Shown here: piece after piece, positions 42,106 to 45,374 of the stretch | How positions within the stretch are numbered: the first letter of the stretch is position 1 | Layout of the letters: every line of letters begins with the position of its first letter | Assembly: GCF_016584665.1 (NCBI RefSeq) | Contig: NZ_BBJB01000001.1 | Location: forward strand, 1-46,186 | Direction: 5' to 3' | Source: Pseudanabaena sp. lw0831 | Lineage (GTDB): Bacteria; Cyanobacteriota; Cyanobacteriia; Pseudanabaenales; Pseudanabaenaceae | Length of the DNA stretch: 46,186 bases | Program-made: the position numbers and the translations under genes | The notes under the pieces: generated by a model | The model's database searches: none | What the model was told of the DNA's origin: nothing | The model's input: only the letters and a program-made list of their open reading frames with translations

Positions 42106-42155
42106 AAGTTGATTGATAAAATATTTGGCGATCGCGAAGATAAAGTTGAAGTTAA
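42106..42155 (+). pseudogene. fragment related to the 43228 gene
   Basis: The frame KLIDKIFGDREDKVEVK matches the N-terminal segment LLDKIFRDREGKVVLAQ of the gene at 43228-43539. The bases are also alike (GATAAAATATT, GCGATCGCGAAG). It has no intact start and no membrane part. Confidence 0.65.
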
Positions 42156-42201: not shown

Positions 42202-43167
42202 CTAAGTTCCTTGAGGCTGAATCACCAACACGCGGACTTTAGAATTAGTTGTGGCAATATCTAAATCTGTTGGATCGTTTTGATTTTGTTCTAAGTCAAG
42301 TCTTAATCCCAGAAAATTCAGGGATTGGCAAATAAGTTCGCGGATGATCTCTGTATTCTCACTTAATTCAGCTGTAAATACCAAACCATCCATACCACCT
42401 AAACTCATCAACATGGAACCAAGGCACGATCGCAAACGCTGAATGTAAATATCCAAGGCTTGTTTTGCTCTAGAATTATCCGTTTCAATCTCAGATGCTA
42501 CCGATCGCGGGTCTTCTGACGCTTGAGCAACATCCATTAAATTCGATTCTTTAACCACTTCTCGCTTTGAAGAATCATCTTTGTTGTTATCTTGCCGCAT
42601 CATTTCACTCAAAACACTTGGGTCAATTGAGCCAGAGCTATAATCAATCATCAAACCTTCTAAAGGCGTGAATCCTTTAGCCGTATCAATGATCTGACCA
42701 TTGTGGATTGCGGCAAGAGAACAACCACCGTCTAAATTGCAAGTAATCAGACGCAGTTCGTTGAGATTGCGCTCTAAGATTTGGGCAGCTCGTTCAGCGC
42801 AATACTGGTGAACGCTTTCATTAAGTCCAAAATGTCGTTGATCAACATCTACAGGAACGATAGGAAGTGAAGGGACTGTAGCAAGATTAGAACTCTTAGA
42901 AGCTACCGTAAGTTCATCAGCAGTAGTATCTTTAGGTTCTGCTGGTGGATTGGAAGCAATCTCTCGCCAATCTAAATCTAATTTTGCACAAATTTCAAAA
43001 AAGGTAAACCGCTCAACTGCTTTCCCTGCAAAAAAACGATAAATCGGTTGACGTGTTTTTATACCGACTTCAATGGCAAGATACTCTTGAGTCCAACCTT
43101 TACTATTAAACTGCTGCTTGGCTTGTTTAATTCCTGCTGGTGATGCATGTAGGGATCGCTTAGAGAT
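42202..43167 (-). CDS. HTH - degenerate acetate-kinase-like fusion with abnormal start
   Basis: An uninterrupted frame of about 321 codons. Residues 1-65 (SKRSLHASPAGIKQAKQQFN, WTQEYLAIEVGIKTRQPIYR, FFEICAKLDLDWREIAS) match the HTH found at the N-terminus of cyanobacterial NACHT proteins. After a linker comes the C-terminal lobe of acetate kinase: HQYCAERAAQILERNLNELR, LITCNLDGG, AKGFTPLEGLM, SSGSIDP; then an acidic insertion of about 50 residues; then QALDIYIQRLRSCLGSML, LVFTAELSEN. Compared with AckA, the HLGNG His is Asn, the GTRSGDIDP Arg is Ser, the chain stops before PTNEE, and the whole N-terminal lobe is missing. Catalysis is therefore unlikely. No ATG/GTG/TTG precedes the HTH in frame except ATG 43198-43200, followed six codons later by TAG (43180-43182). 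An AGGA precedes ATC at 43165-43167, where homologues would have ATG. It may be a pseudogene or use non-standard initiation. Confidence 0.6.
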   Translation of the reverse strand: MSKRSLHASPAGIKQAKQQFNSKGWTQEYLAIEVGIKTRQPIYRFFAGKAVERFTFFEICAKLDLDWREIASNPPAEPKDTTADELTVASKSSNLATVPSLPIVPVDVDQRHFGLNESVHQYCAERAAQILERNLNELRLITCNLDGGCSLAAIHNGQIIDTAKGFTPLEGLMIDYSSGSIDPSVLSEMMRQDNNKDDSSKREVVKESNLMDVAQASEDPRSVASEIETDNSRAKQALDIYIQRLRSCLGSMLMSLGGMDGLVFTAELSENTEIIRELICQSLNFLGLRLDLEQNQNDPTDLDIATTNSKVRVLVIQPQGT

Positions 43168-43227
43168 AGTAGTAAGTTCCTATTTATAACTCGTTTTCAT
43201 ATTATATTATCTCTAATTAATGCTTTA

Positions 43228-43539
43228 GTGATTCAATATATATATTTTTTTAACAAAATCAAACACTTGGAAAACACATTGCTCGATAAAATATTCCGCG
43301 ATCGCGAAGGCAAAGTCGTTCTCGCTCAGATGCCCAACTTACCTCTCATAGTTTGGATTGTGGCTAGTTTATTGCGTCTAGTTTTTACAACAGGCAAAGT
43401 TAATATTGGATTAGAAGCGATCGCTTTTGGCTCTCTGTTTACTTGGGCTTGGGAAGAATTATTTCAAGGAGTTAATTACTTTCGGAGAGCATTAGGGCTT
43501 TTGGTGCTTATTGGTCTGATTGTGTCAAAAATTCAGTAG
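43228..43539 (+). CDS. small cyanobacterial membrane protein, two to three TM
   Basis: The 103-residue frame starts with GTG; TTG codons at 43267 or 43279 may be the real start. A conserved-looking soluble N-terminus, LLDKIFRDREGKVVLAQMPN, precedes hydrophobic segments LPLIVWIVASLLRLVF, GLEAIAFGSLFTWAWEELF and LGLLVLIGLIVSKIQ. Function unknown. It is divergent from the HTH/acetate-kinase-like frame with only about 30 bases between them. A fragment of a relative lies at 42106-42155. Confidence 0.65.
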   Translation: MIQYIYFFNKIKHLENTLLDKIFRDREGKVVLAQMPNLPLIVWIVASLLRLVFTTGKVNIGLEAIAFGSLFTWAWEELFQGVNYFRRALGLLVLIGLIVSKIQ

Positions 43540-43770: not shown

Positions 43771-44688
43771 ATGGATAAAGAGATTAAAGCTAGTTCAGAT
43801 GCATTAGATAATTCAATAAGTGCCAAAGCAGTTCCTCTTAAAAATGTACTCGATCAAAGCGAAGAAATCAAAGCAAATGTAGAGGAGGCTGCTGGGCAAA
43901 TTGGTTCGGTGAATGCAGTCCTTACAAATGATGCTAAGGTCATGCCCCCATTTCCGACTATCGATGAGGTGATCGCTCAGAACGAAGAAGCCGAGAAAAA
44001 GGTAGTAAAAGCTGCGGAAGATCTGCAACAGGTTAATGCCGAACTCACCAAGCAAGTGGCTGAGAGAATCAACATCGAATCTGAACTGCGGGAAACAAAA
44101 AATGACCTACTTGAGGTACGTGCAGATTTATCAAAATCCCAAGAAAAAGAGAAAGGTGCAATACATATTGCACTTCACGATCCACTAACGGGACTTCCAA
44201 ATCGTTTGTTACTAGAACAGCGTCTCGAGCATGGATTGACTCAATCAAGACGGTATGATAGAAAGCTTGCCCTCATGTTTATTGACTTAGATAAATTTAA
44301 GAACATTAATGATTCCTATGGTCATGCCATTGGGGATAGAGTCCTAATTACTGTGGCAAAACGTTTACAAGCTTTTATTAGGGGAGAAGATATCGTTAGT
44401 CGATGGGGAGGAGATGAGTTTGTGTGCGTTTTATTAAATATCAATCTTGAATCCGATGTGATTAGTCTTGCTGAAAAGATGGTTAATCGGATTTCTGAGA
44501 CTTGTGAGTTTGACGGAATTGTTCTTTCAATAAGTGCCACTATTGGAATTGCCATATGTCCTAGAGATGGAGAAACGGCTGAAATTCTTTTTAAACAGGT
44601 TGACAGAGCTATGTATAAATCTAAAGGCACAGATCAGCGAGTAATGCTGTTTAACGCATCTATTTTAGATAGTCCTGACGATGGATAA
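43771..44688 (+). CDS. diguanylate cyclase with N-terminal coiled coil
   Basis: The 305-residue protein has residues 1-135 as a charged coiled coil (AEKKVVKAAEDLQQVNAELT, RETKNDLLEVRADLSKSQEK) without a known sensor domain. A full GGDEF domain follows: HDPLTGLPNRLLLEQRLEHG, FIDLDKFKNINDSYGHAIGD, SRWGGDEFVCVLL, with an RGED I-site five residues before GGDEF. It should make c-di-GMP and be product-inhibited. The next gene begins 5 bases after its stop. Confidence 0.92.
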   Translation: MDKEIKASSDALDNSISAKAVPLKNVLDQSEEIKANVEEAAGQIGSVNAVLTNDAKVMPPFPTIDEVIAQNEEAEKKVVKAAEDLQQVNAELTKQVAERINIESELRETKNDLLEVRADLSKSQEKEKGAIHIALHDPLTGLPNRLLLEQRLEHGLTQSRRYDRKLALMFIDLDKFKNINDSYGHAIGDRVLITVAKRLQAFIRGEDIVSRWGGDEFVCVLLNINLESDVISLAEKMVNRISETCEFDGIVLSISATIGIAICPRDGETAEILFKQVDRAMYKSKGTDQRVMLFNASILDSPDDG

Positions 44689-44693
44689 ATACT

Positions 44694-45374
44694 TTGGATA
44701 GTATAGTCAAAGATAAACTTTCTCACAGATGGAGAGTGCGATCGCGCTTAATTTTATCCATCCTTGTTGCTTTAATCGTGTTAGTTTTACTTCCATCTTG
44801 GTTTAGCCTGTCCACAAAGATTCTCTGTGTATGGGATGCGGGGATGATCAGTTTTTTAGCCGCAACTTGGGCGTTAATGGTGCAAGCAAAGCCAAAAACA
44901 ATGCGCCGTAATGCTCAAAGCCAAGATGAAGGACGATTAGTAATCTTGAGCATAGTTACCACTGCTTCATGTGCCAGCATATTTGCGATCGCATTTATCT
45001 TAAAAGAAACAAAAGGAAAAGATATAAGTATCTTAATTCCCCATCTAATTCTTGCCGTGGTCACAATTATTGGCTCATGGTTACTCGTTCACACGATTTT
45101 TGCAATGCACTATGCTCATGAATATTATCAGGATCACCAAACTCAAAGTGAATGTAAAGCAGGAGGACTAGCTTTCCCTGAGGATATTGAGCCAGATTAT
45201 TGGGATTTTTTATATTTCTCTTTTGTGATCGGTATGACTAGTCAAGTTTCAGATGTCCAGATTACTTCGCGATCGCTGAGGCGTTTATCTTTATTGCATA
45301 GTGTGCTCTCTTTTTTCTTCAATACTGCAATTGTGGCAATGAGTATTAATATTATTGCTGGACTAACTCAGTAA
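44694..45374 (+). CDS. DUF1345 membrane protein
   Basis: The 226-residue protein from a TTG start, the only start codon near the preceding stop, has about five membrane helices. Family features: ILCVWDAGMISFLAATWALM, DEGRLVILSIVTTASCASIF, AMHYAHEYY and DFLYFSFVIGMTSQVSDVQI. Function is unknown. It is probably co-transcribed with the diguanylate cyclase gene. Confidence 0.85.
   Translation: MDSIVKDKLSHRWRVRSRLILSILVALIVLVLLPSWFSLSTKILCVWDAGMISFLAATWALMVQAKPKTMRRNAQSQDEGRLVILSIVTTASCASIFAIAFILKETKGKDISILIPHLILAVVTIIGSWLLVHTIFAMHYAHEYYQDHQTQSECKAGGLAFPEDIEPDYWDFLYFSFVIGMTSQVSDVQITSRSLRRLSLLHSVLSFFFNTAIVAMSINIIAGLTQ

Follow-up and report, generated by a model that had tools for sequence, protein, structure and literature searches.

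Very few bacterial genes that start outside ATG, GTG and TTG have been experimentally characterized, as stated in excerpts of PMC5472188. The same excerpts describe sigR of Streptomyces, which starts with GTC in 32 of 34 species and with GTT in 2, has an extensive conserved ribosome-binding site and is repressed by IF3; when its codon is made canonical, expression of the regulon becomes unregulated. They also state that infC begins with ATT in E. coli and that its start in Streptomyces is ATC. Excerpts of PMC10158994, concerned with varied codon-anticodon pairs in vitro, describe how IF3 works against pairs that are weak at the third base, AUU with the anticodon CAU among them. Non-canonical starts such as those of infC and sigR are rare, and let cells throttle genes through translation initiation.

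The gene considered here combines a helix-turn-helix (HTH) domain with the second of the two lobes of acetate kinase (AckA), and appears to start with AUC, AUU or AUA (together AUH). It lies in a window of 46,186 nt, that is, the whole stretch of DNA analysed, from the cyanobacterium Pseudanabaena sp. lw0831 (contig NZ_BBJB01000001.1). By analogy, and as far as those excerpts describe it, sigR is the nearest published precedent for this start: it combines a genus-wide start outside ATG, GTG and TTG, one alternative codon and a strong conserved ribosome-binding site, and the fusion is similar. Unlike that sigma factor gene, which stands in an operon with its antisigma factor, the fusion has no operon partner that we could find, and its codon is AUH. 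The infC genes of E. coli and Streptomyces resemble the fusion in their AUU or AUC start, but infC of the Pseudanabaenales has ATG at its conserved N-terminus in all 10 loci read (out of 30 fetched); an IF3 self-loop of the infC kind was rejected for the fusion on this ground. The pcnB gene starts with AUU.

As regards the protein, three families invite comparison. AckA (PF00871, TIGR00016) has a homologous second lobe, but the fusion has no first lobe, has lost active-site positions and scores below the TIGR00016 cut-off. NACHT NTPases with an N-terminal HTH have the same HTH, but the fusion carries neither NACHT nor NCH2, and the paralogues differ from it in the manner of their start. ROK-family repressors join an HTH to a sugar-kinase-like ASKHA fold, which acts as sensor and dimer module and keeps both lobes. 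The fusion likewise joins an HTH to an ASKHA fold, but of another family, and it contains only half an acetate kinase; no ROK match was obtained for it at E up to 1. Titles and abstract openings of the open-access literature gave no description of an HTH-AckA fusion or of this gene.

Coding frame and domain structure

The frame runs on the minus strand from an ATC (43165-43167) to a TAG (42202-42204) and comprises 321 sense codons (42202-43167), with orthologues bringing the set to 16 genes. This agrees with the initial annotation of the window, which had counted about 321 clean codons and had described them as a NACHT-type HTH followed by the second lobe of AckA. A predicted Cro/C1 (XRE)-like HTH, of a type common to NACHT-type proteins, occupies about residues 1-75 (42943-43167), a variable linker about residues 76-108 (42844-42942), and the AckA lobe about residues 109-321 (42205-42843), all on the minus strand. 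Gene finders that take canonical starts for granted overlook such genes: of this frame, an ORF listing based upon canonical starts yields in the window just a fragment of 150 aa, and at locus L010 a 286-aa fragment beginning with GTG.

The sole Pfam match above its cut-off is to half of Acetate_kinase (PF00871; E 9.7e-55, 186.2 bits, cut-off 22). As it is confined to positions 173-383 of the 392 in the profile, the protein possesses the second lobe of AckA only; the absence of a first lobe had been claimed from the window and is borne out. With TIGR00016 the protein scores 188.1 bits, under the cut-off of 293.4. Profile searches thus uphold the AckA half of the description, whereas for the N-terminus HTH_3 reached only 12.6 bits, below its cut-off of 23. 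The NACHT-type HTH was recognized through about 85 N-terminal residues, which share 67% identity with the beginning of a 774-aa protein encoded in the same genome (L043, 955-3276); a profile scan of that protein finds NACHT and NCH2 domains. No NACHT or NCH2 match was obtained for the fusion itself (for NACHT in a profile scan at E up to 1). In 19 of 26 same-genus genomes there are proteins whose HTH is 63-76% identical to that of the fusion, and the one of them that was profile-scanned is the NACHT-NCH2 protein. PADLOC gave this paralogue a weak match to the candidate defence family PDC-S60 (8.4e-10) and another to VakA (0.0076); it gave no match for the fusion.

An AlphaFold2 model of the fusion, built with 8 sequences, has a mean pLDDT of 55.3, with values of 72-91 in the HTH and lower ones over most of the remainder. 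AckA-type kinases top the VIA-align list (KpAckA, Z 11.4), the AckA half being poorly modelled; among solved structures, propionate kinases and acetate kinases such as 1tuu come closest in sequence. For the HTH part of the model, alignments were obtained to the operator-bound P22 c2 repressor (Z 8.2, rmsd 1.8, 62 residues) and to HipB, ImmR and CylR2 (Z 7.8-8.0), although a Z of about 8 is weak for small helical domains and can reflect a common helical arrangement. The HTH also aligns with chains from ribosome complexes (rank 30 at Z 8.8, the Mbf1 disome at Z 8.3 and EDF1 at Z 8.0). Judging from the predicted fold, the HTH may bind DNA.

Residues 114-321 of the fusion align without gaps to residues 174-381 of 1tuu. 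At seven columns of the AckA register the same replacement is seen in every one of the 16 genes, namely (in M. thermophila numbering) Phe179 by Leu, His180 by Asn, His208 by Asn, Gly210 by Asp, Thr240 by Tyr, Arg241 by Ser and Gly331 by Glu; Pro232 is retained in all 16 and Glu384 in 11. HLGNG has become NLDGG and GTRSG has become YSSGS, which confirms the loss of these motifs as first reported for the window. The accompanying statement that the protein ends before PTNEE stands only in part: the chain runs to about the column of Glu384, where the window has Gly and 11 of the 16 genes have Glu. His180 and Arg241, which we take to be catalytic residues of AckA, correspond to Asn and Ser in every gene; this supports the earlier view of a catalytically dead lobe, and makes kinase activity of the fusion protein very unlikely. 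Many AckA residues are nevertheless retained in the lobe.

The 16 lobe sequences group as a single clade (100/100), with the AckA of genome G014 as its sister (100/92); the ordinary AckA proteins of the fusion genomes are more distant in the tree. The lobe in the window is 47% identical to the AckA of its own genome and 61% to that of G014. A separate AckA is present in all 16 fusion genomes. The G014 enzyme (L058, 1098-2474) was seen by eye to carry an EF-hand-like insert in its first lobe, and the transaldolase-like frame directly preceding it (L058, 1-1077) ends in what is, again by eye, a very similar EF-hand-like segment.

Distribution and selection

Intact fusion genes are present in 16 of 38 Pseudanabaenales genomes and in two genera: 15 of the 26 same-genus genomes, the window's own counted, and one of the 12 others of the order (G031, of another genus). 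The named relatives are P. biceps (two records), P. mucicola, P. frigida (a MAG) and two further MAGs. An intact copy is missing from eleven same-genus genomes, of which two are less than 85% complete, and G005, of the same genus, has only a C-terminal remnant, which indicates that the gene can decay or be lost. Among 388 genomes sampled from the class, nine from outside the order gave matches at E up to 1e-65, and these fall within residues 100-323 only, like those of ordinary AckA.

Averaged over 120 pairs, pN/pS is 0.24 in the HTH and 0.65 in the linker (with dN exceeding dS in two of five pairs shown); within the lobe it is 0.15 in codons 110-171 and 0.24 in the rest. The initial annotation had argued that so long an intact frame implies selection, and these values agree with that. 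By this comparison of sequences the fusion is a working gene under purifying selection, and not a pseudogene. Because the lobe is itself under such selection, it is likely to be folded and to interact.

One might still regard the window, which has no canonical start, as a pseudogene that has recently lost its ATG, or as bearing a sequencing error, and the truncated remnant in G005 demonstrates that decay does occur. However, the same state is found in all 16 genes and in two genera, with bodies intact and under purifying selection; not one of the full-length genes has ATG at this position or a broken body. We consider such an explanation hardly credible, and the recent loss that had been offered as one account of the start is abandoned with it.

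Proposed start codon and ribosome-binding site

As described initially, the ATC of the window stands behind an AGGA (43178-43181, minus strand), which sits 10 nt ahead of it. Among the 16 distinct genes the codon at this position is ATC in 10, ATT in 5 and ATA in 1, and in none is it ATG, GTG or TTG; comparison with sister genomes thus extends the state seen in the window to both genera. On a tree built without the start codon at least four changes among ATC, ATT and ATA are required. A Shine-Dalgarno core at a spacing of 4-11 nt precedes 15 of the 16 genes, with GGAG in 13; the sixteenth, G015, has AGGGG and no standard core. The spacing between core and start is 6, 8, 9 or 10 nt, so that the upstream frame is not kept.

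The sources from which the fusion was presumably assembled differ in both respects. Long-frame HTH paralogues have ATG at the equivalent position in 15 of 15 cases, in keeping with the initial expectation that homologues would have ATG where the window has ATC, and so do AckA genes in all 24 loci where the N-terminus could be recognized (26 were tried). The fusion, then, has AUH where its sources have ATG. A Shine-Dalgarno core at the same spacing precedes 5 of the 15 HTH paralogues and none of the 24 AckA genes, versus 15 of 16 fusions. A ribosome-binding site precedes the fusion start, whereas most of the source genes are without one.

Upstream of the start, an in-frame stop occurs 4 or 5 codons away in 11 genes, while the other five have 14, 20 or (in three) more than 30 open codons. 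No in-frame ATG, GTG or TTG was found in any of the 16 genes back to the nearest stop or, where there is no stop, over 30 codons; in two genes a canonical codon lies in frame 42 codons upstream (ATG in G004, TTG in G009). In four genes an in-frame ATT stands three codons ahead of the start; one of these, G015, has in addition an ATC immediately before it. The window possesses an in-frame ATG (43198-43200) which, as noted at the outset, reaches a TAG (43180-43182) at the seventh codon. This leader frame (43180-43200, minus strand) is the window's own; it is not conserved among the 16 genes and we judge it incidental, so that readthrough of the TAG, another of the accounts first put forward, loses its basis. 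TAG readthrough and leader-coupled translation were both rejected as general explanations, there being no upstream ORF common to most of the 16 genes.

Reading downstream, ten genes meet their first canonical codon at codon 34 (GTG, within the HTH), two (G023 and G017) at codon 6 (TTG, inside the frame) and four beyond codon 34. The window meets its first at codon 172, and therefore no canonical start there can yield the HTH. Codons 2-33 have a mean pN/pS of 0.28; as they are constrained as protein, translation must begin before them.

It might be proposed that each species makes use of canonical starts of its own, through upstream leaders with reinitiation or through GTG at codon 34, and that the isoleucine codon is internal or untranslated. 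That GTG is present in 12 of the 16 genes, the two canonical codons 42 codons upstream could be enlisted, and in five genes a short out-of-frame ORF ends at +8, overlapping the start (ATG-started in G002, G019, G023 and G025, TTG-started in G010), so that coupled reinitiation is possible there. Yet the GTG is absent from G000, G012, G001 and G031, the window offers nothing before codon 172, codons 2-33 are under purifying selection, and the stop 4-5 codons upstream in 11 genes and the lack of an upstream ORF common to most of them tell against leaders; we regard the proposal as improbable. The AUH codon as the sole position that fits all 16 genes as a start is strongly supported by these comparisons, and because there is no other shared start, a Shine-Dalgarno core is present and the HTH is conserved, this codon probably serves as the start. 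Of the three accounts in the initial annotation it is the AUC start that the orthologues favour. The fusion fits a class of conserved non-canonical starts, with AUH in 16 of 16 genes and a core in 15, the canonical codon 42 codons upstream in two genes being kept in mind.

ATC, ATT and ATA all specify isoleucine, and the start column consequently also resembles an internal isoleucine. One of the ten internal all-isoleucine columns has the identical mix (C10/T5/A1), and 17 of 53 fourfold columns have no G in any row, so that active avoidance of ATG is not proved by counts. The same G-less columns can be adduced for the view that the AUH start is tolerated and not selected, with little product needed, the loss of ATG fixed once, drift among the isoleucine codons thereafter, and no regulation by IF3. 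Against this, ATG is one base away but occurs in none of the 16 genes, and 15 have the core, which together suggest that the combination is maintained. Mere tolerance is possible in our opinion, though we lean against it.

Five start regions of 70 nt were folded (z 1.07, 0.48, -0.32, -2.32 and 1.21) and revealed no common RNA structure. Shortly upstream of the ribosome-binding site some species have, by eye, long near-perfect hairpins of unrelated sequence (L061 in G002, L068 in G025, L072 in G009 and L074 in G018), which are possibly small mobile palindromes.

Neighbourhood and proposed function

When the neighbours of the 16 fusion loci were clustered, they proved to be common only within sub-clades, an example being one downstream cluster found in G022, G015, G019, G010 and G001. 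They therefore indicate no target or partner, and the search for an operon or partner by synteny was given up for this reason. An ackA gene lies close to the fusion, at 2.1 kb, in one locus only (G018). The window has a GGDEF diguanylate cyclase (43771-44688) and a DUF1345 protein (44694-45374), both on the plus strand, adjoining the fusion gene; a relative of the GGDEF frame also clusters near the fusion in G012 and G031, and at none of the remaining 13 loci. The fusion gene of the window stands between two direct copies of a 38-nt repeat (42109-42146 and 43279-43316), which are 84% identical.

A sigma-70 scan of the window found 4 candidates versus a shuffle mean of 3.9, hence no excess. Between about -70 and -225 relative to the start (16 loci), TTACAAATAT with at most one mismatch is present upstream of 6 of 16 fusions and 8 of 15 NACHT-type genes versus 96 of 2000 random stretches, a contrast which AT-richness may inflate, since coding DNA, with its lower AT content, is among the random stretches. 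Under the same caution, TGTTTGATTT with at most one mismatch was observed in 12 of 16 fusion upstreams and 2 of 15 NACHT-type upstreams versus 112 of 2000 random stretches. Longer composite patterns occur in 0 or 3 of the 16 fusion upstreams and in none of the 15 NACHT-type ones. TTACAAATAT is a lead to a putative operator common to the fusion and the NACHT genes.

Based upon the foregoing, we assign a probability of roughly 55% to the reading that the fusion is a regulator of low abundance, held back in translation by an AUH start which follows a strong ribosome-binding site, and that its AckA lobe dimerizes the HTH. The gene would have originated when the 5' part of a NACHT-type gene, encoding the HTH, became fused with the part of a duplicated acetate kinase gene that encodes lobe II. 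The AGGA/GGAG site would position ribosomes so that initiator tRNA starts at AUC, AUU or AUA. By analogy with infC and sigR, IF3 would destabilize initiation on these codons, so that synthesis of the fusion would be kept low and tied to the fidelity of initiation, to which it may thus be responsive. The product would be without kinase action; to judge from its domains a regulator is the most likely reading, probably a low-copy one that binds DNA. AckA forms dimers. If the lobe behaves similarly it would dimerize the HTH, either with itself or with true AckA, and it may also bind nucleotide or another ligand. Acetyl-phosphate sensing or scaffolding, as first suggested for the window, could conceivably be among its roles.

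The protein could also start at AUH but not bind DNA, its HTH-like domain serving as an interaction module, so that it would act as a decoy or adaptor for NACHT-type proteins, or as a dominant partner of AckA through the dimer face of lobe II. The closely similar HTH domains encoded in 19 of 26 same-genus genomes, one of them shown by profile scan to accompany NACHT and NCH2, are in its favour, as are the separate AckA in all 16 fusion genomes and the many AckA residues that lobe II retains. The predicted HTH fold, on the other hand, is like that of ordinary DNA-binding domains of the Cro/C1 type, ackA is nearby in just one of the 16 loci, and among the neighbours, which were clustered and not named, none was seen to be a NACHT gene. 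We consider such a module rather unlikely.

Returning to the low-abundance regulator, a more specific proposal is that cyanobacteria possess a regulator made of a NACHT-type HTH and half an AckA which is held under IF3 fidelity control by an obligatory AUH start. We advance this tentatively, as something that may well prove otherwise. To our knowledge an IF3-controlled fusion would be the first non-canonical-start regulator of such a kind outside Streptomyces. The fusion shows the reuse of half an enzyme, its active-site positions replaced alike in every lineage examined, and its 16 AUH starts, 15 of them behind a Shine-Dalgarno core, offer a natural test of whether starts of this sort are preserved for the sake of regulation. 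If the proposal is true, the state of the initiation machinery would be linked in these organisms to the control of acetate-related or NACHT-related genes.
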